IMG/VR virus record: IMGVR_UViG_3300014962_000046
Coordinates: 3,010-24,713 of that record
From: a virus
Strand: one strand, 5' to 3'
DNA: 21,704 nucleotides
In this document: positions 2,467 through 21,481 of the stretch, in pieces
How the letters are laid out: the number at the start of each line of letters is the position of its first letter
How positions within the stretch are numbered: the first letter of the stretch is position 1
Notes under the pieces: model-generated
Told to the model about the DNA's origin: nothing
Seen by the model: the letters and a program-made list of their open reading frames with translations, nothing else
Database searches by the model: none
Program-made: the position numbers and the translations under genes

Positions 2467-2859
2467 ATGAACGCGAGCGAGGCGCGGGCGCGGATCGAGG
2501 ACGAGACGCAGTGGGCGACGGCCCCGGCGCTGAGCGTCGGGGAGGTGGACCGGCTGCTGGCGCGGTCGCAGGTGGCGGACTCGCAGGGGCGGGAGCCCGG
2601 CTCGAGCGGCTACGTGGCGACGCACTCGGCCTCGTCGGTCCGCGCCTCGATCGCGTCCGGGTGGCGGATGAAGGCGGCGAAGGCGTCGGCGCTGTTCGAC
2701 GTGAAGGCCGGGGACGTGGAGGCGAAGCGCAGCCAGATCGCGGCGGGGTGCATGGCGATGGCGCGGCGCTACGGCGGCAGCGGGCTCGGGCTGGGCGACG
2801 GGCCGGGCGGCATGGGGACGATCACGGTGGGCACGGCGCTGTCGGAGGCGGGCTCGTGA
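2467..2859 (+). CDS. Head-tail connector (adaptor) protein, probable
   Basis: This is a 130-residue protein with an ATG at 2467 behind a weak TAGGAC stretch. The start (MNASEARARIEDETQWATAP) and the helix LSVGEVDRLLARSQV are followed by a second helical part (SGWRMKAAKASALFDV, then VEAKRSQIAAGCMAMARRY). The C-terminus is Gly-rich. This all-alpha pattern of an LSxxEVDxLL helix plus a K/A-rich helix with FDVKAGD and a final MA-RR helix matches the adaptor proteins that sit under the portal. Its place between head proteins and the next connector genes agrees. It overlaps the next gene through GTGA, indicating coupled translation. The exact family is inferred from pattern and order. Confidence 0.65.
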   Translation: MNASEARARIEDETQWATAPALSVGEVDRLLARSQVADSQGREPGSSGYVATHSASSVRASIASGWRMKAAKASALFDVKAGDVEAKRSQIAAGCMAMARRYGGSGLGLGDGPGGMGTITVGTALSEAGS

Positions 2860-3233
2860 GCGACGCCTGGCTGACCACGCTGGACGGGGCGGAACTGGCG
2901 GCGCTGAACCAGACCGGGTTCCGCACCAAGGTGGCGGTGGCCGGCGGGGTCAGCCTGGTGCTGTACCGCGACGTGGAGATGGACGGCACGGCCGCGGCGC
3001 TGCCGGCGACGACGGTGCTGGTGGAGTTCCGGGACCGGCTGCCGCAGGCGCAGACTGCGGGGGCGGTGAACCTGCAGCTGCAGCGGGCCGACCTGAGCGC
3101 GATCGCGCCGTGGGACGTGCGGCCGGGCGACCGGTTCACGCTGCCGGACGGGACGGCGGGGCGGGTGAGCGTGGTGCCGCCGGCGCGGCTGGGGGTGCAG
3201 ACGGCGCAGGCGGACCTCGAGGTGTGGCGCTGA
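2856..3233 (+). CDS. Head closure (stopper) protein, probable
   Basis: This is a 125-residue protein. The GTG at 2856 is chosen because GGAGG lies at 2844-2848 and the GTGA overlap with the preceding stop is the same coupling seen elsewhere here. The longer frame from 2511 is a shadow of the preceding gene. The protein is strand-rich. A PWDVRPGDRFTLPDGTAGRV segment near residues 87-107 looks like the barrel core common in stopper and closure proteins, which contain a statement of the form 'on-demand D-x-F' followed by a short loop and strand. Gene order (adaptor, this, HK97 gp10-like, terminator) supports a head-completion role, plugging the portal until the tail is joined. Confidence rests mainly on context. 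Confidence 0.55.
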   Translation: MSDAWLTTLDGAELAALNQTGFRTKVAVAGGVSLVLYRDVEMDGTAAALPATTVLVEFRDRLPQAQTAGAVNLQLQRADLSAIAPWDVRPGDRFTLPDGTAGRVSVVPPARLGVQTAQADLEVWR

Positions 3234-3598
3234 TGGCGTCGCGGGGGTTCCGCTGGGAGGCGCCGCCGACGCGGCTCGTCGCGTCGCTCGGAAAGTACGA
3301 CGCGGCGGTGACGAAGGGCGCGCACCAGATCGGCGACGTGTACGCCGCGAAGATGGAGAGCTTCGCCAAGAGCACCGCGCCGTGGGCGGACCGGACGGGG
3401 GCCACGCGGCAGAGCCTGACCGGGACGACCGAGAAGAGCGCGACGCTGATGAAGATCTGGCTGTTCGGCGACACGCCGTACCTGCCGTTCCTCGAGCTGG
3501 GGACGCGGACCATGCGGCCGTACCCGGTGATCTGGCCGACGATCAGCGCGCACGCCAAGCCGCTGATGGACGACCTGCGGCGGCTGGTGGAGGGATAG
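3233..3598 (+). CDS. HK97 gp10-like neck/tail-completion protein
   Basis: This is a 121-residue protein with an ATG at 3233 overlapping the previous TGA (TGATG) and a GAGGTG ribosome site at 3219-3224. The key feature is YLPFLELGTRTMRPYPVIWP near residues 82-101. It matches the HK97-gp10-like pattern of an aromatic residue, then E-x-GT, then a Pro-aromatic-Pro segment. Members act in the neck, between the head connectors and the tail terminator. The N-terminal half has the usual helix (VTKGAHQIGDVYAAKMESFAK) followed by APWADRTGATRQSL, also typical (the W-x-D-R-TG-A-R-SL motif). Length is normal for the family. Confidence 0.82.
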   Translation: MASRGFRWEAPPTRLVASLGKYDAAVTKGAHQIGDVYAAKMESFAKSTAPWADRTGATRQSLTGTTEKSATLMKIWLFGDTPYLPFLELGTRTMRPYPVIWPTISAHAKPLMDDLRRLVEG

Positions 3599-5908
3599 AT
3601 GGCCGAGCTGCACGCCGCGATCGTCGCGTACCTGCAGGCCGACGCGCAGCTGACGGGGGCGCAGCCCGGCGGGCTGGGCTTCCTGGTGTTCGACCGCTGG
3701 CTGGTGCCGGGCAACGGGCCGGGGAGCACGCCGACGGCGTTCGACGCCACGCAGGGCGGGCGGCTGAAGCGCTGCATCGTGGTGCTCGACGGCGGGGAAG
3801 TCACCAACCCGAGCCCGAGCATGGCGGGATACCGGCTGTGGGACAGCTTCCCACAGGTGTACGTGTTCGCGGAGGCGAACGCGGCGGGGCGCTCGGCGCT
3901 GGAGCGGGCGGACGCGCGGATCGAGCGGCTGCTGGGGCAGTGGAGCCTGCTGCTGACGGACGGGTCGCTGGTGTCGTTCGAGCGGGAGAGCCGGACGAGC
4001 CTGGGCGACAGCGAGGCGTTCCCGGGGAACGCGGCGACGACGAGCCGGTACCGGGCGACGGCGGCGCGCGAGGACGGGGCGGAGCCGATCGACCCGACGA
4101 GCCCGTTCTTCGGGACGACGGGGCCGACCGGGCCGATGGGACGGACCGGGCCGACGGGGCCGCAGGGGATCCCGGGGGCGGCGGCGAACCAGGGCGCGAC
4201 GGGGCCGACCGGGCCGTTCGGGCCGACGGGGCCGCAGGGAACGACCGGGGCGGACAGCACGGTGGCGGGACCGACCGGTCCGGTGGGGCCGACCGGGCCG
4301 CAGGGCGCCGCGGGGCCGCAGGGGGCGATGGGGCCGACGGGGGCGCAGGGGCAGCAGGGCATCCAGGGCGCGCCGGGCGTCTCGACGGTGATCGTGGGGT
4401 CGGTGGCGACGCCAGCGCAGCTGCAGACGCCGTACACGGGCGAGGTCGGGGACGCGTTCATCGCGGACAGCGACGGCGACCTGTACGTGTGGACGGCGGG
4501 CGGGACGTGGCTGTCGGCGGGGCAGATCGTGGGGCCGCAGGGGCCGGCTGGCCCGCAGGGCGTGGTGGGGCCGCAAGGGCCGGCGGGCGCGACCGGGGCG
4601 ACGGGGCCGGTGGGACCGCAGGGCGTGGCCGGGCCGCAGGGAGCCGCGGGGCCGATCGGGCTGACCGGGGAGACGGGCGCGACGGGACCGGCCGGGCCGC
4701 AGGGACCGGATGGACCGCAGGGCGCGGCCGGGGCGCAGGGTCCCGCCGGCAGCGACGGCAGCACCGGGCCGACGGGTCCGCAAGGCGCTGCCGGAGCGGT
4801 GGGCGGCATCGGCGCGACCGGTCATGCCGGACCGCAAGGCGCCGCCGGCTCCGATGGCGCGACCGGTCCGACCGGACCAGCCGGCATCGAGGGCATCGCG
4901 GGGCCTCAGGGTCCGGACGGACCTCAGGGAGCCGACGGCCCACAGGGCCCGCAAGGAGCCGATGGACCTCAGGGCGCGGCGGGCGCGACCGGGCCCACTG
5001 GCGTGGCCGGCCCGCAAGGCGGGGACGGTGCACAGGGTCCGACCGGACCCACCGGGTCCGTCGGGCAACAGGGAGCGGCCGGACCCATCGGCATGACGGG
5101 CGACGCCGGACCCACCGGTCCTCAAGGCATTGCCGGGACACAAGGCCCGGCGGGTTCGCAAGGACCGCAGGGCGCGGACGGCGCCGCCGGGCCCACGGGA
5201 GCGCAGGGGGCTGCCGGGACGGCCGGCGCGGACGGCGCCACGGGACCCACCGGTCCGTCCGGAGCGCAGGGAGCCGCAGGTGCGGCCGGAGCGGACGGCG
5301 CCACCGGACCGACGGGGCCGGTCGGGGCGCAGGGCGTGGCTGGTCCGCAGGGAACGGCCGGGGCGGACGGCGCGACCGGTCCCACCGGGGCGGCGGGGCC
5401 GCAGGGCGCCGCGGGTGCCGCCGGGGCAGACGGCGCGACCGGTCCGACCGGCCCGGTTGGTCCGCAGGGCGTGGCCGGGCTGCAGGGAGCCGCGGGAGCC
5501 AATGGCGCGACCGGAGCCACCGGACCGACCGGGCCGCAGGGAACGGCGGGAGCCAATGGCGCGACCGGAGCCACCGGACCGACCGGGCCGACCGGCACGT
5601 CCGACTACAGCGCCAGCGTCAACGCGCAGACGGGCACGTCCTACACCATCGCGTCGACCGACAACGGCAAGGTCGTCACGTTCAACAACTCGGCCAGCAT
5701 CGGGGTGACGGCCGCGACGGGACTGGCGACCGGGTTCAACTGCGTGCTCGTGCAGCTCGGCGCCGGCCAGGTGACGGTCAACGCCGGGGCGGGCGTCACG
5801 CTGAACGCGCGGGCCTCGTGGAAGAAGCTGGCCGGGCAGTACGCGGCGGCCACGCTGATCGCCTACGACACCAGCACCTACGTGCTGAGCGGGGACACCA
5901 CGTCATGA
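3599..5908 (+). CDS. Tail terminator-like domain fused to a long collagen-like fibre with an adhesin-type C-terminal domain
   Basis: This is a 769-residue protein. The ATG at 3599 directly follows the previous TAG, with GGAGGG at 3589-3594. Residues 1-165 resemble a tail terminator or completion protein: an N-terminal helix ([17 protein letters not shown]), strands, a long second helix ([18 protein letters not shown]) and a final SRYRATA strand. They also stand where that gene is expected. Residues 172-260 are Gly-X-Y repeats with two breaks. Residues 261-311 form a globular insert containing [15 protein letters not shown]. Residues 312-668 are about 119 uninterrupted Gly-X-Y triplets dominated by GPT, GPQ, GAT and GAD. 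Residues 670-769 are a strand-rich domain ([14 protein letters not shown] to TYVLSGD) also present in the protein at 20813-21481. The terminator call is moderate; the collagen call is certain. Confidence 0.8.
4112..4378 (+). repeat. Collagen-like Gly-X-Y block 1
   Basis: These codons encode residues 172-260 of the fibre protein. Gly recurs at every third residue except at two short breaks, around AAANQG and ADSTVAG. GPT and GPQ triplets dominate. At about 0.29 nm rise per residue, a triple helix of this block would be roughly 25 nm long. The breaks would introduce flexible points near the attachment end. Confidence 0.9.
4532..5602 (+). repeat. Collagen-like Gly-X-Y block 2, uninterrupted
   Basis: These codons encode residues 312-668, with Gly at every third position and no break over 119 triplets. 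There is almost no basic residue, while Asp recurs as GAD, GPD and GSD. As a triple helix it would be about 100 nm long. The later part uses more varied synonymous codons (GGA, GGT, GGC, CCC, CCT) than the earlier part, which is mostly GGG CCG. That reduces DNA identity between repeats. Confidence 0.93.
5492..5590 (+). repeat. Exact 45-bp direct repeat within the collagen region
   Basis: Bases 5492-5536 and 5546-5590 are identical over 45 bp and offset by 54 bp, so the unit length is a whole number of Gly-X-Y triplets. Each copy encodes an [15 protein letters not shown]-type segment. It looks like a recent in-frame duplication and could expand or contract the fibre by recombination or slippage. 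Confidence 0.85.
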
Positions 5909-6657
5909 CGCTGAGCATGGCGGCGGCCGGCAGCAGCATCGGGCCGCGGTGGACGCCGCTGCAGTTCGGCTCCAGCCTCATCCTGTGGCTCGACGGCAAG
6001 GACACCGGGACCATCGCCGCCACGTCGGGACGGGTCACGCAATGGGACGACAAGAGCGGCAAGGGCAACCACGCGACGCAGACCACCGCATCCGTTCGCC
6101 CGAGCTATACGGCCGGCAACGAGTACGTGACCTTCGACGTGCAGGACTACCGGCTCGACACCCCAATTTCCGGGTCCACCCGCACCGAGACCGCGCTGGC
6201 CGTGGTGCGTCTCACGTTGGGCCTAATCAACAGCACCATCCTCGGGCCGTCCTTGGCCGGCGGCCGCCAGTGGCGGATGAGCGATGTTTCGCCGTTCAGC
6301 GTCTCCTACCTCAAGTCCGGCGTCGAAGTCCTGCATCAGGGAACCACGGCGGTGCAGACCGGGTCGGACGCCGTGTTCCTGTCGCGGGCCAGCGCCACTG
6401 AAATCCGGGTCGGGTACAACGGCAACTGGAGCACCGGCAGCAACTCGGTGACGCTGGACGGCGGTTCGACCACGCGCATTGGAGCGCGGCACAACAACAA
6501 CAACCAGAGCCTCAGGGGACGCATCTACGAGCTGTTCGTCACCAACAGCACGATGGGCGACGACGACCTGCGCCTCGCCGAGGGCTACCTCGCCCACCGT
6601 TGGGGCCTCACCGCGGACCTGCCGAGCGACCACCCGTACAAGAACATCCGGCCGTAG
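5905..6657 (+). CDS. Lectin-like (concanavalin A/LamG-type) fibre-associated protein
   Basis: This is a 250-residue protein. The ATG at 5905 overlaps the fibre gene's TGA (ATGA), and GGGGA lies about ten bases upstream. Near residues 23-66 are [30 protein letters not shown] and VRPSY. The C-terminus reads [20 protein letters not shown] followed by DHPYKN. These paired motifs are characteristic of jelly-roll LamG/lectin-type domains in phage adhesion proteins and secreted bacterial proteins. The expected role is binding surface glycans, probably as a partner or tip of the collagen fibre encoded just before it. Codon use is less uniformly G/C-ending than in neighbours (ATT, TTG, CTA, GTT, TTT and GAA occur), which suggests a separate origin. 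The fold is recognised by pattern; the ligand cannot be told. Confidence 0.75.
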
Positions 6658-6668
6658 GAGGGCACGAC

Positions 6669-7004
6669 ATGGCGACGTTCACGTTCGCGATTCCGGACAG
6701 CGAGGCGGCGCGCATCGCGGCGGCGGTGTGCGCCTCGCAGGGCTACGGGCCGAGCGGCCCGGCCGACGCGACGCAGTTCACGGCCGGCTACGTGTTCCGG
6801 CACCTCGCGGGCATCGTGATCGGGCAGGAGGCGGCGCAGGCGGCGGCGCAGGCGGCGGACGCGGTGCGGACGAACGCGACGGACCCGCTGGCGCAGGCGC
6901 TGCTGACGCCGGTGGCGCCGCCCGCGCCTGAGCCGTCGCCGGGGCCGCAGGGGCCGACCGGCGAGAGCGGCCCGACCGGGGCGATCGGCGGGCCGCGGCG
7001 GTGA
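6669..7004 (+). CDS. Small protein with a short collagen-like tail, unknown function
   Basis: This is a 111-residue protein with an ATG at 6669 behind GGAGGG at 6657-6662. Residues 1-80 begin MATFTFAIPDSEAARIAAAV and continue with a helical region (QFTAGYVFRHLAGIVIGQEA, then Ala/Gln-rich). A Pro-rich hinge (PVAPPAPEPSPGPQGPTG) leads to a short Gly-X-Y end, ESGPTGAIGGPRR. A small helical domain plus collagen tail beside a long collagen fibre suggests an assembly partner, anchor or trimerisation helper for the fibre, which is inference. Similar small proteins with the FTFxIPD-type start occur near phage tail and fibre genes, mostly without assigned function. The next gene's GTG overlaps its stop by 4 bases. 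Confidence 0.65.
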   Translation: MATFTFAIPDSEAARIAAAVCASQGYGPSGPADATQFTAGYVFRHLAGIVIGQEAAQAAAQAADAVRTNATDPLAQALLTPVAPPAPEPSPGPQGPTGESGPTGAIGGPRR

Positions 7005-7393
7005 ACACGGTGCGCGTGCGGTGGGAGGGGCATCCGAGCCCGTTCGACGACCCGGCGATCGTGCGGGCGATCGCGGAGGGGCGGGCGCCGCTGCCGCTGG
7101 TGGAGCGGCTGCGGCGGTTCGAGCACATGGAGCGGATCTCGGCGGTGCCGGGGCGCAGCGAGTTCGTGATCGGGCCGGCGCACGGGTTCACGCGGACGTA
7201 CGTGTGGGGGCCGGACGTGTTCGAGCAGGAGATGGAGCGGGCGGACTGGGAGCTGCTGCGGGGGAACCCGTGGGACGGCCCGATGTTCCGCGAGGCGACG
7301 CCGCACCCGCGCTGGCCGCTGGGCCGGGACGGGTGGCGGCGATTGATGGAGGCGTTCGACCGGAAGCCCAGTCCCGCTGGGCGGCCGCGATGA
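7001..7393 (+). CDS. Conserved-looking hypothetical protein, basic, Trp-rich
   Basis: This is a 130-residue protein starting at the GTG at 7001 (GTGA overlap with the previous gene) and ending at the TGA at 7391-7393. Third positions are strongly G/C. It contains VRVRWEGHPSPFDDPAIVRA, an acidic/basic helix, a strand-like EFVIGPAHGFTRTYVWGPDV centre and several Trp-containing elements (WELLRGNPWDG and HPRWPLGRDGW). There is no signal peptide, membrane segment or known catalytic motif. I do not recognise it. Its place between the fibre genes and the tail tube gene suggests a minor neck or tail component or an assembly factor. Confidence 0.6.
   Translation: MNTVRVRWEGHPSPFDDPAIVRAIAEGRAPLPLVERLRRFEHMERISAVPGRSEFVIGPAHGFTRTYVWGPDVFEQEMERADWELLRGNPWDGPMFREATPHPRWPLGRDGWRRLMEAFDRKPSPAGRPR
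7366..7382 (+). other. Small hairpin over the ribosome-binding region of the 7390 gene
   Basis: GCCCAG (7366-7371) and CTGGGC (7377-7382) pair around TCCCG, ending 7 bases before the ATG at 7390. The gene has no good Shine-Dalgarno sequence, and the only G-rich stretch is inside the right arm. Translation of the next gene may therefore depend on ribosomes arriving from the upstream gene, which overlaps it by ATGA. Confidence 0.3.
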
Positions 7394-7656
7394 CGACGCC
7401 GGGCGAGTGGCCGTGGGAGCCGGCGGCGGCCGAGCTCCCGTTGCGGTGCCTGAGCCTGGCGGGGGTGATCGAGCTCGACGCGGCGGGCGCGCCGCAGGGC
7501 TTCAGGCGGAGGTGCCGTGACCGTCGGTGCTGCCCGCCGCGACCGGGATACGCGGCCTACCACCGCTGGGCGCTGGTGGGCGAGGGAGCGGGCGGGTACG
7601 TGACCGCGTACGTGCCGCTGCGGCCGGTCGAGGAGTTCCTCGACCGTGGCGAGTAG
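7390..7656 (+). CDS. Small Cys/Arg-rich hypothetical protein
   Basis: This is an 88-residue protein. The ATG at 7390 forms an ATGA overlap with the previous stop; the longer upstream frame is a shadow. Four cysteines cluster in LRCLSLAG and RRRCRDRRCCPPRPGY, about 25 residues apart, with several Arg. A strand-rich end reads VTAYVPLRPVEEFL. The cysteine spacing could bind metal or form disulphides, but there is no full zinc-finger pattern. It lies 15 bases before the tail tube gene. I do not recognise the family. A minor structural or assembly role is possible from its place in the operon. Confidence 0.55.
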   Translation: MTTPGEWPWEPAAAELPLRCLSLAGVIELDAAGAPQGFRRRCRDRRCCPPRPGYAAYHRWALVGEGAGGYVTAYVPLRPVEEFLDRGE

Positions 7657-7671: not shown

Positions 7672-8217
7672 ATGCCGCTGACGAACACGGCGGGAGAGAT
7701 CCCGTACAGCATTACCGACTGCAAGGTGTACCCGTACACCGCGGGGTCGCCGGGCACCATGACCGACGTGCCCGGCATCCGCCGGGTGGAGATCTCGGCG
7801 CAGATCGAGGAGGCCGAGCACCGCGGCGACAACAGCGTGCTGGCGGTGGCCGCGTCGATCTCCAGCTTCGACCTCACCCTCGAGGTGGGGCGGATGAACG
7901 TGGACGCGATCTCGCTGCTGGCCGGCGGCACGGTGACCAGCACGGGCACCACGCCGAACCAGGTGCGGACGCTGACCCGCAAGAGCACCGACGTGATCGC
8001 GGACTACCAGATCAAGGCGGCGGCGCCGAGCAAGTCCGCGGACGCGGGCGTCGCGGTGATCGTGCTGCCGCGCTGCCAGTGGGTGGGCGGCCCGAGCTAC
8101 TCGATGGCGGACAACGAGTTCCCCGTGATCGAGATCAGCGCGCGGGCGATCCCCGACAGCAGCAGCGTGCTCTACAAGTTCGAGCAGTACGAGAGCAGCA
8201 GCTACGCGCTGAGCTAG
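7672..8217 (+). CDS. Major tail (tube) protein
   Basis: This is a 181-residue protein with an ATG at 7672 behind GGGAGG at 7661-7666, a strong site suited to a protein needed in hundreds of copies. The pattern fits siphovirus tube proteins: an N-terminal arm, then GIRRVEISAQIEEAEHRGDN (strand followed by a charged loop), then ISSFDLTLEVGRMNVDAISLL (strand then helix), a central extended segment, and strands up to FPVIEISARAIPD. The order of an 'x-x-G-D' loop, strand with alternating polar residues and L-x-x-L-x-G helix is the usual one. It lies just before the tail chaperones and tape measure, exactly where expected. The tube carries DNA and surrounds the tape measure. A G/C hairpin starts at its last base. 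Confidence 0.85.
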   Translation: MPLTNTAGEIPYSITDCKVYPYTAGSPGTMTDVPGIRRVEISAQIEEAEHRGDNSVLAVAASISSFDLTLEVGRMNVDAISLLAGGTVTSTGTTPNQVRTLTRKSTDVIADYQIKAAAPSKSADAGVAVIVLPRCQWVGGPSYSMADNEFPVIEISARAIPDSSSVLYKFEQYESSSYALS

Positions 8218-9235: not shown

Positions 9236-12200
9236 ATGGACCTGGGGACCGCGAGGGGACTGATCGAGATCGGGTTCGACCGCAAGGGCGTCGACGCGGC
9301 GAAGGCGGCGATGGCCGACCTCGGCACCGCCTCCGCGACGCTCGGCAGGGCGGTCGACGACGTCGGGCTGCGGCTTGCCGCGTTCGGCGCGGCCGCGACG
9401 GCGCCGTTCGCGATCGCAGTCACCGCCGCGGCGGACTTCGATGCGCAGCTGAACGCGATCGCGGCGGTGGGCGGGGCGGCGGCGCAGGCCAGGCTGGCGG
9501 AGATCGAGCAGGCCGCGCTGGACATGGGGGCGTCCACCAGGTTCAGCGCCTCCGAGGCCGCGGCCGGAATGGAAGAGCTGATCAAGGCGGGCCTGCCGGT
9601 GCAGGACGTGCTGGACGGGGCCGCCCAGTCGGCGCTTGACCTGGCGGCGGCCACGGGCACCAGCGTGCCGCAGGCCGCAGAGATCATGGCCAACGCGCTC
9701 AACGTGTTCGGCGACTCGATGACCGGGTTCAACACCGCGGGCGAGAAGGCGGTCGCGATCAGCAACCTGTTCGCCCAGGCGGCCAACGCCTCGGCCACGG
9801 ACGTCGGCGAGCTCGGGCAGGCCTTCTCGCAGGCCGCGATCGTGGCGGAGCAGTTCGGGATCCCGGTGGAGGAGCTGACGGCCCAGTTCGGCATCTTCGC
9901 CAACGCCGGGCTCAAGGGCAGCGACGCCGGAACCAGCTTCAAGACCATGCTGCTGGCGATGCTTGACCCGACCAAGGAACAGGCCGCGGCGATGGAGGAG
10001 CTGGGCATCAGCTTCTTCGACGCGCAGGGCGAGTTCATCGGGCTGGAAGGAGTTGCGGGGGAGCTGCAGGGCGGGCTCGCCGGGCTGACCGAGGAACAGC
10101 GGCAGACGGCACTGGCGGTGCTGTTCGGGACCGACGCGGTGCGGGCGGCGAGCATCGTCTACGCCCAGGGCACCAGCGGGATCGACGAGTTCAGCGGGGC
10201 GATGGAGGCCGCGGGCACCGTGGCGGAGCAGGCGGCAACGCGGAACTCCGGCCTGCGCGGGTCGCTGGAGGAGCTGCGGGGGGCGGCCGAGTCACTGGCG
10301 ATCTCGGTCGGCAAGGAACTGATCCCGATCATCCAGCCGGTGGTGGAAGGGTTCACGGACCTGATCCGCAAGCTGAACGACGCGCCGCCGGCGCTGAAGG
10401 CGCTGGTTGGCGGGATCGGCGGCGCCGCCGCCGTGCTCACCGCGATCGGTGGGGCCACGCTGCTGTTCGCGGGGCAGGTGGCAGAGTCGGTGACGGCGCT
10501 CAAGACATTCAAGACGGCGCTCGATGCGGCGAAGGCCAGCAGCGTCATCCTGAACGGCGCGCTCGGTCCGATGGGGCTTGCGGTGGCCGGCGTGGTCGCC
10601 GCGATCGGGCTGTTCGCGAAGGCATGGGTAGAGGCGAACCGGGCGGTCGACGAGGCCACGGCGCTGGCCGAGCGGGCCGACGCGGTGTTCGGGTCGCTGG
10701 ACGCGACGCTCTCGGCCAGCGGGCTGCAGGGCTACACGATCCGGTTCGAGGAACTGGCGAGCGCATACCCGCCCGGCATCCGCTCCGCGTTCGACTTCGG
10801 CGACGCGGTGAACGGCTACAACGCGGCGCTGATCGACAGCGCGGAGGCGACGGTCAAGGCGGGCGGCAGCCTCAACGAGTTTGGATCCTTCGTCACCGCC
10901 GCGGACCAGTTGCTCAAAGCCAACCGGGCGACGCTTGACGACCTGACTCCGGCATACCAGGCGTACCAGGCGGCGATCGAGTTCACGGGTCCGGCGCAGG
11001 ACGCGATCCGGGAGTCGCTGGCGCGGCTGACCGAGGAGTTCGTCAAGGGGAAGATCGGGCCGGCCGAGTACGTCGAGCAGGTGAACGCGCTGCTGGCGCT
11101 GGGGCCGGACCTGAACGCGCAGGTCTCGGAGCAGACGAAGCAGCAGGACGCGCTGCGGGCCTCGATCCTGGGCACCAACGCCGCGGTGCGGGAACTGACC
11201 GAGGTCCAGAAGATCCAGAAGGATCTCTCGGCCGACCTCGCGGAGCAGTTGGCCGAAGAGGCGGCCGCCACCGACGACTACGCGGAGCGGTGGCGCAACG
11301 CGACGCGCGACATCAGCACCGGCATCGTCGGCAACGTGGACGACTTCGACGCGTGGATAAAGGCGCAGGAGGAGGCCGGCGTCGCCAGCCGCTACGCCAC
11401 CGAGCTCACGCTCGAGCAGGCGGCGGCGCTGCAGGAGCTGGCCGACGAGCTTGCGGCGGTCGGCGAGGAGATCATCGCGGAGGCGAAGGCGCAGGAGGAG
11501 GCGACGGTCGGGGCGGCGCGGGAGCAGGCGGAGGCGCTGATCCGCGAGGCGGAGCGCGGCGGCAAGGAGCGCGTCAAGGCGCTGGAGCGAAGCGGCAAGG
11601 AGGAGGTGCGGGCCGCGCAGCAGACGGCGAACGACATGATCCGCGAGGCGGAGCGGCAGGAGGCCGAGATCGTGGCGGCGGCCGAGGCGACCGCCGACGC
11701 CCGGATCAAGGCGGCGCAGCGGGCCGAGAAGGAGGGCGTGAACGCCGCCGAGCGCGAGGCGACGCTGGTGATCCGGGAGGCCGAGCGGCAGGAGGCGCGG
11801 ACCGTCGCGGCGGCCGAGCGTGCCGCCGACGCGCAGCTGGCCGCGGTGGAGAAGAACCGCGAGCAGATCGTGGAGGCGGCGCAGCAGCAGGCGGACGGGC
11901 AGATCGAGGCCGCACAGGAAGCCGAGAAGGAGACGGTCGAGGCCGCGGAACGCGCTGCGGACGCGCAGATCGACGCTGCCGAGAAGGCCGCGGAGGCGGT
12001 GGTCGAGGCGGCGCGGGATGCCGCGGAGGCGCAGATCGATGCCGCCGAGGAGTGGGCCGACCGCCAGGTCGAGGCGGCGCGGCGGGCGGAGGAAGCGACC
12101 GTCAAGGCGGCCGAGCGGGCGGCCGATGCGCAGATCCGGGCGGCGGAGCGCGCGGCGGCGGCGCAGGAGCGCGCGATCGAGCGGCGGCTGCAGAAGGAGA

Positions 12201-13969
12201 TCGATGCCGCCGAGCGGCAGCTGCAGATCATCGAGAACCGGATCGATCGCCAGGTCGCCAAGGAGATCGAGGCGGCGCAGCGGGTGTACGACGCGCGGAT
12301 GACCGAGATCGACCAGCTCGCCGACGCGGAGAAGACCACCGCGACCTACGAGCTGAACGAGCAGTACAAGGAGCGCACGCGGTCGGTCGAGGACGCGGCG
12401 GCCGCCGAGATCGCGGCGATCAAGGCGCTCGGCCTGTCCCGGGAGGAGGAGGCGGCGCGGATCCTCGAGATCGAGCGCCGGCTCCAGGACGAGAAGGACC
12501 GCATCAACTACGAGTTGGCGCAGGCCGAGCAGGCGCGGATCGCCGAGATCGAGGCGGCGCGGACCGAGGCGATGCGGGCCGCGGAGGAGGAGCGCGACAA
12601 GATCGCCGAGGCCGCGGCGGAGCGGGCCGAGAAGCGGCTGCAGCGGGCCGAGGAGCGCGCCGCGAAGATCCGGGAGGAGGCGGAGCGCGAGGCGGCGAAG
12701 AAATCCGAGGCAATCAACAACGAGCTCGAGCGGGTGCGCCGCGACGCGGCGCGCGAGACGGCGCGGGTGGCGGCCGAGGCGGCGAAGACGCGGGAGACGG
12801 CCGAGGCGGCGGCCGCGGAACGGGTCGAGGCGATCCGGGAAGAGGCGGCGGCGCGCGTGGAGGCCGCGGAGACGGCGGCCGCGGAGCGGGTCGAGACCGT
12901 CAAGCAGGAGGCGCTGGCGCGGACGGAGGCGGCGGCGGCTGCTGCGGCGGCGCGGCGCGAGGCGGTCGAGACGGCGGCGGCGGAGAACGTCGCCCGGGTG
13001 CAGGAAGAGCAGGCAGCCATCGCGGCCGCGGCCGAGGAGCGCATCAGCAAGGAGCTCGAGGACGCAAAGCGGATCGCGGCGCGCGAGACGGCCGACATCC
13101 GGCGCGAGCAGGAGCGGATCGTCCGTGACGAGGAGCGGGCGCTGGCGAAGGAGACCGCGGACGAGATCCGCACCATCACCGACGAACTGGAGAACGAGCG
13201 ACGCGAGGCGGCGAAGACGACCTCGCTGGTGCGGCGCGCGGCCGACCGTCTGGTGCGGAACGCGGAGCGGGACAACCAGGAGGCCATCCGGGCGGAGCTG
13301 CGCAAGACCGAGGACGAGCACAAGCGGATCAACGACTGGCTGGCGCTGATCACGGAGGCTGCCGGCCGGCTGCGGATCAACACCGAGCGCAGGGTGCACG
13401 ACGAGACAAAGCGGCTGCTTGACGAGGCCAAGAAGAACGCCGGCGAGTCCGGCATGAGCGCCGGCACCGCCTACGGGCAGGGATTCGCCGACGCGCTGCG
13501 CGACATGGGCGACGACATGGCGGCGGCGGCGCGAGCGGCCGCGCGGAAGGTGAAGGAGGCGACCGAGAAGGAGCTGGAAATCTCCTCGCCGTCCAAGTGG
13601 GCAATGCGCATCGGCGGGTACGTCGGCGACGGCCTGCGGTCGGGCCTGCTGGGCGCGATGGCGGACGCAGGAGCGGGCGCCCGGGCGCTGGCCGCGGCGG
13701 TGCAGTCGCAGCTGACGCGGGGGATCGAGGTGGAGCCGATCGCGGCGGGCTACGCGGACATGGCGGCGGCCGGAGTGGCGGCGCGGCAGTCGGCGTTCCG
13801 CAGCGACCTGGCCTACGCGAACCAGCAGGCGCTGGCGATGCCGCAGCAGCTCGAGGCGACGGTGGTGATCGACGGGACGGACATGGGGCGGTTCGTCGTC
13901 GGCACGGCCCTGGCTCCGATCGCCGAGGCGGCGCGGCGGACGGGAACCCGGCGGGAGGCGTGGGCATGA
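9236..13969 (+). CDS. Tail tape measure protein
   Basis: This is a 1577-residue protein with an ATG at 9236 behind GAGGGGG. Residues about 1-375 match the TP901-type core, with LIEIGFDRKGVDAAKAAMAD followed by AADFDAQLNAIAAVGGAAA, and STRFSASEAAAGMEELIKAG then ALNVFGD. Hydrophobic segments at 389-413 and 445-462 could enter the host membrane during DNA injection. Residues 747-1032 are 26 hendecad repeats, followed by further charged coiled coil to about 1400. Near the end, EISSPSKWAMRIGGYVGDGL (1448-1467) is a common tape-measure C-terminal motif. No lysozyme or peptidase motif was seen. At about 0.15 nm per residue the tail should be near 235 nm long. It overlaps the next gene by ATGA. Confidence 0.96.
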   Translation: MDLGTARGLIEIGFDRKGVDAAKAAMADLGTASATLGRAVDDVGLRLAAFGAAATAPFAIAVTAAADFDAQLNAIAAVGGAAAQARLAEIEQAALDMGASTRFSASEAAAGMEELIKAGLPVQDVLDGAAQSALDLAAATGTSVPQAAEIMANALNVFGDSMTGFNTAGEKAVAISNLFAQAANASATDVGELGQAFSQAAIVAEQFGIPVEELTAQFGIFANAGLKGSDAGTSFKTMLLAMLDPTKEQAAAMEELGISFFDAQGEFIGLEGVAGELQGGLAGLTEEQRQTALAVLFGTDAVRAASIVYAQGTSGIDEFSGAMEAAGTVAEQAATRNSGLRGSLEELRGAAESLAISVGKELIPIIQPVVEGFTDLIRKLNDAPPALKALVGGIGGAAAVLTAIGGATLLFAGQVAESVTALKTFKTALDAAKASSVILNGALGPMGLAVAGVVAAIGLFAKAWVEANRAVDEATALAERADAVFGSLDATLSASGLQGYTIRFEELASAYPPGIRSAFDFGDAVNGYNAALIDSAEATVKAGGSLNEFGSFVTAADQLLKANRATLDDLTPAYQAYQAAIEFTGPAQDAIRESLARLTEEFVKGKIGPAEYVEQVNALLALGPDLNAQVSEQTKQQDALRASILGTNAAVRELTEVQKIQKDLSADLAEQLAEEAAATDDYAERWRNATRDISTGIVGNVDDFDAWIKAQEEAGVASRYATELTLEQAAALQELADELAAVGEEIIAEAKAQEEATVGAAREQAEALIREAERGGKERVKALERSGKEEVRAAQQTANDMIREAERQEAEIVAAAEATADARIKAAQRAEKEGVNAAEREATLVIREAERQEARTVAAAERAADAQLAAVEKNREQIVEAAQQQADGQIEAAQEAEKETVEAAERAADAQIDAAEKAAEAVVEAARDAAEAQIDAAEEWADRQVEAARRAEEATVKAAERAADAQIRAAERAAAAQERAIERRLQKEIDAAERQLQIIENRIDRQVAKEIEAAQRVYDARMTEIDQLADAEKTTATYELNEQYKERTRSVEDAAAAEIAAIKALGLSREEEAARILEIERRLQDEKDRINYELAQAEQARIAEIEAARTEAMRAAEEERDKIAEAAAERAEKRLQRAEERAAKIREEAEREAAKKSEAINNELERVRRDAARETARVAAEAAKTRETAEAAAAERVEAIREEAAARVEAAETAAAERVETVKQEALARTEAAAAAAAARREAVETAAAENVARVQEEQAAIAAAAEERISKELEDAKRIAARETADIRREQERIVRDEERALAKETADEIRTITDELENERREAAKTTSLVRRAADRLVRNAERDNQEAIRAELRKTEDEHKRINDWLALITEAAGRLRINTERRVHDETKRLLDEAKKNAGESGMSAGTAYGQGFADALRDMGDDMAAAARAAARKVKEATEKELEISSPSKWAMRIGGYVGDGLRSGLLGAMADAGAGARALAAAVQSQLTRGIEVEPIAAGYADMAAAGVAARQSAFRSDLAYANQQALAMPQQLEATVVIDGTDMGRFVVGTALAPIAEAARRTGTRREAWA
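11474..12331 (+). repeat. 26 tandem 33-bp (11-residue) hendecad repeats in the tape measure
   Basis: From residue 747 to 1032 the protein divides exactly into 26 units of 11 residues. An aliphatic residue occupies position 1 in 24 of 26, often alternating Ile and Val, followed by x-A-A-[EQR] and Ala/Glu/Arg. Examples are VEAAERAADAQ, IDAAEKAAEAV and VEAARDAAEAQ. No insertion breaks the register. An 11-residue period gives a nearly straight helix bundle rather than a supercoiled heptad coil. Confidence 0.9.
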
Positions 13970-15940: not shown

Positions 15941-16384
15941 ATGGCGGGAATGAGCTCGTACCTGGAGACCGCGCTGCTGAACGAGGTGTTCCGCACGGCG
16001 GCATACACGAAGCCGACGCGGGTCTACGTGAGCCTGCACGCGGCGGACCCGACCGACGCCGGCACCGGGTCCACGGAGATCACCGGCAACGGGTACACGC
16101 GGGCGGACGCGGGGGTGCCCAACGACACGAACTGGCTGCTCGCCACCGCGCCGTCGGGCGACGGCCGCCAGGTGACCAACGCGGCGCAGGTGAGCTTCCC
16201 GGCTCCGACCGGAAACTGGGTGAGCGGATCCGGCGGCACGACCATCACCCACTTCGGGATCTGGGACGCGGCGACCGGCGGCAACCTGCTGTTCAGCGGA
16301 GCGCTGGGCACGTCGCGCACGGTCAGCGCCGGCGACGGGGCGCCGACGTTCCAGGCGCAGTCGATCCTCGTCCGCCTGAGCTAG
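15941..16384 (+). CDS. Small conserved phage tail/fibre protein
   Basis: This is a 147-residue protein with an ATG at 15941 behind GAGGAAGGG at 15926-15934. It has the features of a widespread phage tail family: a start like SSYLETALLNEVFRTAAYT, then RVYVSLHAADPTDAGTG, GNGYTRADAGV, VSFPAPTGNW and THFGIWDAATGGNLLFSGAL. These follow the common order of helix, VYVALYTxDP strand and THFGIxDA-GNLLFxGxL end. Members are usually annotated as tail fibre or tail proteins and lie among tail-tip genes; the precise role is unsettled. It lies between the Dit-like and hub genes and is probably a minor tail-tip component. Confidence 0.8.
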   Translation: MAGMSSYLETALLNEVFRTAAYTKPTRVYVSLHAADPTDAGTGSTEITGNGYTRADAGVPNDTNWLLATAPSGDGRQVTNAAQVSFPAPTGNWVSGSGGTTITHFGIWDAATGGNLLFSGALGTSRTVSAGDGAPTFQAQSILVRLS

Positions 16385-20812: not shown

Positions 20813-21481
20813 ATGGCGATCGGGTACAGCGACTATCCGGGAGCGGTGGACACCGCGTCGACGCTGCTGCGGGCGCGGGCGCTGCGGTCGACGGCGCTGC
20901 GGTTCCCGGTCGGTGCGACCGACACCGTGGTGCCGCTGATCTCGACCGCCGGCTTCCCGCCGGACGGCGCGGTGCTGGTCGAGGATGAGGTGATCGTCTA
21001 CGCGGGACTGACCGAGACGGACCTCACGGGGTGCATCCGCGGCGCGTTCCAGGACGACGGGTACGGTCCGGCGACCGCGCACGCCATCGGCGCTCCGGTG
21101 ATCCTGGCGCCGCTGGCCGCGCATCACCGGGTGCTCGCGGACGCCGTTGTCGCGGTCCAGCAGCGGGCGAACGCGCTGCTGGGCATCACGGTCAACGACC
21201 AGACGGGAACGTCGTACACGCTCGCGGAGACGGACCGCGGGGCGCTGGTCCGCTGCACCAACGCCAACGCCATCGCGGTCCAGGTGCCAGCCGGACTGGC
21301 GGGCGGATTCCGCTGCCAGATCGTCCAGGGCGGAGGGGGACGGGTGACGCTGTCCGGGGCGTCCGGGGTGGGGATCACCAACCGGCTGGGCTACACGAAG
21401 ACGGCGGGGCCGGCGGCGGTGGTGGAGCTGATCGCGTACGGGGCAAACCTGTACTACCTGACGGGCGACACCGGAGCCTGA
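20813..21481 (+). CDS. Tail-tip adhesin-like protein
   Basis: This is a 222-residue protein with an ATG at 20813 behind AGGAGGGG at 20801-20808, which overlaps the previous stop. Residues about 15-100 have a phage tail-tip type module: TLLRARALRSTALRFPVGAT, then ISTAGFPPDGAVLVEDEVI, YAGLTETDLTGCIRGAF and the AHAIGAPV end, with a GCIRG turn. Residues 124-222 are a separate strand-rich domain (NDQTGTSYTLAETDRGALVR to LYYLTGDTGA). It is paralogous to the last 100 residues of the collagen fibre protein (3599-5908). The expected role is receptor contact or capping of the tip. It is the last structural gene before a probable lysis module. Confidence 0.7.
   Translation: MAIGYSDYPGAVDTASTLLRARALRSTALRFPVGATDTVVPLISTAGFPPDGAVLVEDEVIVYAGLTETDLTGCIRGAFQDDGYGPATAHAIGAPVILAPLAAHHRVLADAVVAVQQRANALLGITVNDQTGTSYTLAETDRGALVRCTNANAIAVQVPAGLAGGFRCQIVQGGGGRVTLSGASGVGITNRLGYTKTAGPAAVVELIAYGANLYYLTGDTGA

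Follow-up and report, generated by a model that had tools for sequence, protein, structure and literature searches.

In phage particles, tail terminators are hexamers that end the tail tube and face the stopper (PMC11784142; Douge, PMC13033339). Additional domains are present in some of them, as in contractile tails (PMC11784142), and we found no report of a terminator in which the extra domain is a fiber. The siphophage terminators that we used for comparison (lambda gpU, SPP1 gp17, T5 p142, and the PF11367 and PHROG families) are stand-alone proteins of ~115 to 165 amino acids (aa). The gene described here shares with them its slot in the gene order, the size of its N-terminal part, and, in a low-confidence model, its predicted topology and best structural neighbors, but a fiber of ~600 residues is appended to it.

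Fibers at the phage neck are known from several systems. The neck passage structure of lactococcal phages (TP901-1, Tuc2009, and the 936 group) is a long trimeric neck fiber with a host-surface-type end domain, both of which we predict for the present protein. It is regarded as an accessory device for adsorption (PMC9692632, PMC6669499) and has been proposed to act in first capture (PMC9692632). In contrast to our gene, the neck passage structure is encoded separately (3′ of the receptor-binding protein in P335 phages), has a BppU-like anchor and a coiled coil, and was modeled as six trimeric fibers. The authors of the TP901-1 modeling study (PMC10747895) state that they did not know exactly how such fibers attach to the neck. 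Anabaena myophage A-1(L) has neck fibers of ~100 nm, a length comparable to that of the long collagen block described below, built from trimeric gp82 on a 15-mer ring; the carbohydrate-binding module at the fiber end did not bind to the host of this phage (PMC10966104). The A-1(L) fibers and the fibritin whiskers of T4 and PhiRSL1 differ from our case in that they are separate proteins on a neck ring, present in five, six, or 12 copies, and contain no collagen.

Collagen-like Gly-X-Y repeats are likewise known in phages. The collagen-like proteins of Escherichia coli O157 prophages share these repeats with the present gene but are tail fibers and are not fused to a connector ring, while SPP1 gp12 places collagen away from the tail tip but as trimers bound on the capsid surface (PMC3368898, PMC6316719). 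Thus, neck fibers and phage collagen are each established, and a terminator with a built-in collagen fiber, which the sequence context supports well, would be a new variant of design.

We analyzed a stretch of 21,704 nucleotides (the window; positions 3,010 to 24,713) from IMG/VR record IMGVR_UViG_3300014962_000046, which comprises 24,713 bases, belongs to an uncultured tailed bacterial virus, and may be a genome fragment. At a probability of roughly 75%, we read one gene in this window as a tail terminator with a collagen fiber on its C terminus, i.e., as a fiber anchored at the neck. Compared with neck passage structures and whiskers, the gene has a terminator-like anchor and a collagen shaft, both within one frame; its product may work like such a device without being a member of either group.

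Architecture of the fused gene

The gene (3599 to 5908, plus strand, as are all of its parts) is a single frame of 769 codons that runs from an ATG at 3599 to a stop codon at 5906 to 5908 with no internal stop. A Shine-Dalgarno-like GGAGGG lies just 5′ of the ATG, and the TAG of the upstream gene (3596 to 3598) directly abuts it. An earlier note on this DNA had proposed that one frame joins an N-terminal domain to two collagen-like blocks and an end domain, and the uninterrupted 769-aa product bears this out. A tail terminator-like domain occupies residues 1 to 157 (3599 to 4069); synteny, a stand-alone homologue, Foldseek neighbors, a weak PF11367 match, and hhalign all bear on its identity, as detailed below. 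The domain had been drawn as residues 1 to 165. The domain itself stands, but the fold ends near residue 157, and residues 158 to 171 (4070 to 4111) form a linker to the fiber that is missing from the stand-alone homologue. Collagen block 1 (residues 172 to 262; 4112 to 4384) consists of 8, 7, and 13 triplets (residues 172 to 195, 199 to 219, and 224 to 262) separated by two short breaks. It is followed by a spacer module of 49 residues (263 to 311; 4385 to 4531), by collagen block 2 (residues 312 to 668; 4532 to 5602), and by a C-terminal beta domain of the spike type (residues 669 to 769; 5603 to 5905).

Block 2 had been described as an uninterrupted stretch of ~360 residues. It is indeed unbroken, and its exact length is 357 residues, or 119 Gly-X-Y triplets. 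At 0.286 nm per residue this gives ~102 nm, in agreement with the earlier estimate of about 100 nm. The Pfam collagen profile (PF01391) matched the fused frame with an E value of 3.6e−63, and the chance of 119 consecutive triplets is below 10^−56 even if one third of all residues were Gly. A chance origin of the Gly-X-Y blocks is therefore excluded.

We considered whether an indel or a lost stop codon, introduced by assembly or sequencing, had joined a terminator gene to a separate fiber gene. The sequence comes from a single metagenome contig, and a short string of N lies in the record close to where the window begins. Against such an artifact, there is no N inside the window, the flanks on both sides are homologous to those of a related contig in the same order, and no credible start codon would be available to a collagen gene on its own. 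Third-position GC is also uniform, at 0.96 to 0.98, over the N-terminal domain, the linker plus block 1, the spacer, and the tip. We consider an artifact of this kind very improbable. Assembly collapse in the repeats is a minor worry as well, since the collagen DNA has only one exact repeat of at least 24 bp (45 bp; 5492 to 5536 and 5546 to 5590). Only in 4532 to 5602, the long block, does third-position GC fall to 0.75 to 0.85; it is 0.92 to 1.0 in all other genes checked. This drop may reflect recent expansion of the block or selection against DNA repeats.

Identity of the N-terminal domain

The gene neighborhood is that of a head-tail connector region. Farther upstream are portal-like and MuF-like frames (read from the sequence), a scaffold-like frame, and a capsid gene (PF05065). 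These are followed by an adaptor (2467 to 2859), a head-tail stopper (2856 to 3233, plus strand), and an HK97 gp10-like tail completion or neck protein (3233 to 3598, plus strand; phrog_5, E = 3.1e−12), the last confirming the upstream neighbor named in the earlier note. Downstream of the fused gene lie a gene for a 250-aa virion-type protein (5905 to 6657, plus strand; phrog_10356, virion structural protein, E = 2e−25), whose start overlaps the stop codon of the fused gene (ATGA), a gene for a 111-aa protein with a few Gly-X-Y triplets at its end (6669 to 7004, plus strand), two small genes (7001 to 7393 and 7390 to 7656), the major tail tube protein gene (7672 to 8217, plus strand; phrog_4971, E = 1.8e−27), and a gene for a tape measure protein of 1,577 residues (9236 to 13969; PF10145). 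Separate genes of the tail-fiber type are found near the 3′ end of the contig. A frame at 15941 to 16384 matched phrog_240, “head protein” (E = 5.5e−33), though it sits among tail-tip genes.

We compared this order with that of actinophages having related capsid or tail tube proteins. Muddy, Eileen, Wollypog, and LuckyLeo have the same order of adaptor, stopper, gp10, and tail tube, and in all four the gene after the gp10 position, where the fused gene lies here, is an annotated tail terminator of 130 to 144 aa. Terminator and tail tube genes are likewise separated by two small genes in Wollypog and LuckyLeo. The 7390 to 7656 product is a small cysteine-rich protein (CRDRRCC motif) encoded just 5′ of the tail tube gene; it is weakly similar to Wollypog gp13 and LuckyLeo gp22, and its gene appears to be a conserved, unnamed gene of the neck region. 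Two other frames, assigned by eye, were seen in connector regions of related phages: a glycosyltransferase-like frame between capsid and adaptor genes (L010, 9063 to 10133) and a NUMOD4/HNH homing endonuclease-like frame among the head-tail connector genes (L008, 10182 to 10754).

A key relative of the region is L016, a GTDB contig from a metagenome-assembled genome labeled Proteobacteria. L016 encodes a homologue of residues 1 to 157 that is 49% identical, and this homologue (L016:792-1271) is a stand-alone protein of 160 aa in the same slot, without collagen or linker. The flanking genes are related to those of the window as well: the stopper, which also holds the slot of the stopper in the other relatives, is 37% identical (L016:51-425), the gp10-like protein 39% (L016:427-795), the two small gene products 42% (7001 to 7393) and 39% (7390 to 7656), and the tail tube protein 48% (L016:2349-2906). 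Both the collagen and the gene at 5905 to 6657 are missing between the L016 terminator and tail tube genes, and the 119-aa gene that follows the L016 terminator has no similarity to the 6669 to 7004 protein. The genes at 5905 to 6657 and 6669 to 7004 thus look like two members of an inserted fiber cassette. From this comparison, the terminator would have gained its C-terminal fiber, along with the small cassette, in the lineage of this phage, or the fiber would have been lost from L016.

Profile and structure comparisons gave weaker signals in the same direction. PF11367 (Tail_completion_gp17) matched the N-terminal domain with an E value of 0.0023 and 18.5 bits, under its cutoff of 24.5, and no PHROG matched it. 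The annotated terminators of Eileen, Muddy, Wollypog, and LuckyLeo are likewise without a Pfam match. When the two-sequence alignment of the domain was compared with 20 PF11367 proteins by hhalign, the P value was 8e−5 (probability, 33%), as opposed to 0.2 to 0.7 for control sets of gp10, stopper, and tail tube proteins. AlphaFold2 with the same two sequences gave a model of low confidence (pLDDT, 57; pTM, 0.56) with the topology helix, strands, helix, two long strands. The top Foldseek neighbors of this low-confidence model in the PDB included connector chains of Douge and Bxb1, 2GJV, T5 p142, and lambda gpU, at probabilities of 0.9 to 1.0 and a TM score of ~0.35, with a best E value of 0.012 and none below 0.001. 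The last three of these are terminators according to PMC11784142 or to the structure title. Among the BFVD neighbors, many are annotated as a tail terminator or a tail completion protein, that of Wollypog included. For this model with a pLDDT of 57, the fold neighbors were mostly terminators and included no other fiber anchor.

Each of these lines would be weak singly, but the gene order, the L016 homologue, and the fold neighbors point the same way, and residues 1 to 157 are very probably a tail terminator. The interpretation of the earlier note is supported in this respect, and it is strengthened by the L016 homologue. The domain might instead be a dedicated fiber anchor that resembles a terminator, with the real terminator encoded outside the contig. 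The lack of a match to any curated family would agree with this, and terminator genes can move, since that of the ceduoviruses lies among early genes (PMC12474359). We also looked for a separate terminator gene, and none was recognized on the 24.7-kb contig, which is possibly a fragment. However, the 49% identical L016 protein occupies the terminator slot as a 160-aa protein with no fiber to anchor, and the low-confidence fold model of the domain matches mostly terminators. We therefore regard a dedicated anchor as unlikely and retain the terminator reading.

The domain has few detectable relatives. No direct relative of the N-terminal part was found in INPHARED, PLSDB, or IMG/VR, and none beyond L016 itself in 299 genomes related to that of L016. 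The tail tube protein, used as bait in IMG/VR, returned no relatives, and sequence searches of the PDB with the N-terminal part or with the tip alignment gave no useful match.

Collagen fiber, spacer, and tip

The spacer (residues 263 to 311) recurs in other viral collagen frames, including L026 (several copies), L114, L076, and L045, with phmmer E values down to 2e−8 for a single domain. The tip (residues 669 to 769) was modeled confidently by AlphaFold2 (pLDDT, 94.8), and Foldseek matched the model to the capsid spike of Pseudomonas phage Pa223 (E = 9.5e−7; TM score, 0.82), with T4 gp10-type baseplate proteins and CBA120 TSP4 as further neighbors. All of these proteins are trimeric. A domain of the same type is also C-terminal in several other collagen frames of IMG/VR viruses. 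Since spacer and tip recur in this way and the tip is spike-like, residues 172 to 769 are an ordinary phage collagen fiber, and the unusual part is the anchor. The window has a second copy of the tip: the last ~95 residues of a 222-aa protein (20813 to 21481) are 47% identical to residues 669 to 769, and the phage thus appears to use the same tip in the neck gene and in the tail-fiber region.

An ordinary fiber downstream of a 14-residue linker could also mean that the product is a precursor that is split, either by proteolysis in the linker or by an internal start of the collagen part, with the fiber attached elsewhere, e.g., to the head or the tail tip. The linker lies between the ring and fiber parts, the spacer and tip are of the kind seen in ordinary viral fibers, and there is an in-frame ATG at 4136. 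This ATG, however, has no Shine-Dalgarno-like motif and is inside the first collagen run, and a freed collagen part would have no anchor domain at its start. We find a split improbable and favor a product that remains fused to the terminator.

Proposed arrangement and role of the fiber

The domain order, the synteny, the homology to terminators through a stand-alone relative, and the spike-like fold of the tip are supported by the sequences and by the structure models. From these we infer a ring state, a pairing into trimers, a location in the virion, and a role in adsorption, as follows. Residues 1 to 157 would form a hexameric ring that keeps the tail tube from growing further and joins the tail to the stopper below the head. 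One collagen chain would run outward from each ring subunit, and three neighboring chains would wind into a triple helix held together distally by the spike-type domain. With six subunits and three chains per helix, a ring would carry two fibers, each ~130 nm in total (~24 nm, the spacer, 102 nm, and the tip). These would serve as neck-anchored ancillary adsorption fibers next to the ordinary tail fibers. As ordinary tail-fiber genes are also on the contig, the collagen fiber looks like an extra, and it is most likely a neck fiber beside them.

The tape measure of 1,577 residues, at ~0.15 nm per residue, predicts a tail of ~237 nm, and a neck fiber of ~130 nm would reach a little past the midpoint of such a tail. 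This geometry is more in keeping with first capture, whether of a cell that lies sideways or of extended surface structures, than with main receptor binding.

Some points count against the design. Six chains would have to sort into trimers, which to our knowledge is without precedent for any terminator. T5 p142 with a C-terminal His tag showed aberrant polymerization (PMC11784142), so a C-terminal extension of a terminator is not obviously harmless. The fusion of a terminator domain to collagen was seen on one metagenomic contig only.

If the arrangement is correct, a terminator tolerates a C-terminal extension of ~600 residues, and host-contact parts can be added at the head end of the tail. 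The fiber would then sit at the neck of the particle and not at the tail tip, where such fibers usually sit. A covalent terminator fiber would have its position and copy number fixed by sequence alone and would be present on every tail. It would also pose a clean question of symmetry, with six subunits in the ring and three chains in the fiber.

Other fusions of fibers to connector rings

Our survey covered 120 stretches of IMG/VR with a total of 126 collagen frames, which were classified by PHROGs and Pfam; purpose-made terminator and gp10 hidden Markov models were too weak for this and were dropped. Among the 37 frames of the 126 that had at least 90 residues before the collagen and were tested, no second terminator-collagen frame appeared among the Pfam and PHROG matches listed, the latter covering the 25 commonest of 111 families. 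In a search of 398 genomes with PF11367, the 20 loci read all ended just past the domain. Long frames in G392 and G445 were rejected since their extension is upstream only, and a PF11367 match in G620:C2 was false. No earlier report of a terminator-collagen fusion was found in the literature covered, which included few subscription papers.

A different connector ring did show such a fusion. The frame at 105 to 1784 of L109 (minus strand) begins with T7 tail tubular protein A (PF17212; E = 1.5e−40), followed by collagen and a folded tip. The ring part shares 57% identity with a stand-alone protein of 219 aa from Synechococcus phage S-SRP02. L109 and its relatives thus resemble the present gene in having a connector ring with C-terminal collagen. 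They differ in that the ring is an adaptor of the T7 gp11 type, which is a 12-mer in T7, in that the phages are of another lineage, and in that relatives have non-collagen extensions or none. A scan found 32 IMG/VR loci, including the contig of L109 itself. Collagen was present in 11 of them (L181 to L191). Related rings in L193 to L205 and L209 mostly have non-collagen extensions, in frames of up to 1,306 residues from the start of the match, and where these extensions are long, the ring part is 70 to 93% identical. More distant T7-type rings (L206 to L208 and L210 to L212) are without extension. Judged by these sequences, another connector ring, from a group of phages that is not related to the present one, appears to have acquired C-terminal fibers as well, with a variable extension on a conserved ring. 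We suggest, as a tentative generalization, that fusion of fibers to the C terminus of a connector ring could be a recurrent neck decoration that evolved independently on the terminator and on the podophage T7-type adaptor with its interchangeable extensions. The ring would set the number of fibers, and the fibers would be swapped as those of the tail tip are.

A tail terminator family of 394 positions, phrog_347, was also tried as a source of extended terminators and was set aside, as its matches in the 398 genomes end near positions 85 to 162. Some members of this family, which was noticed through L009 (3593 to 3940), may carry a long C-terminal extension.
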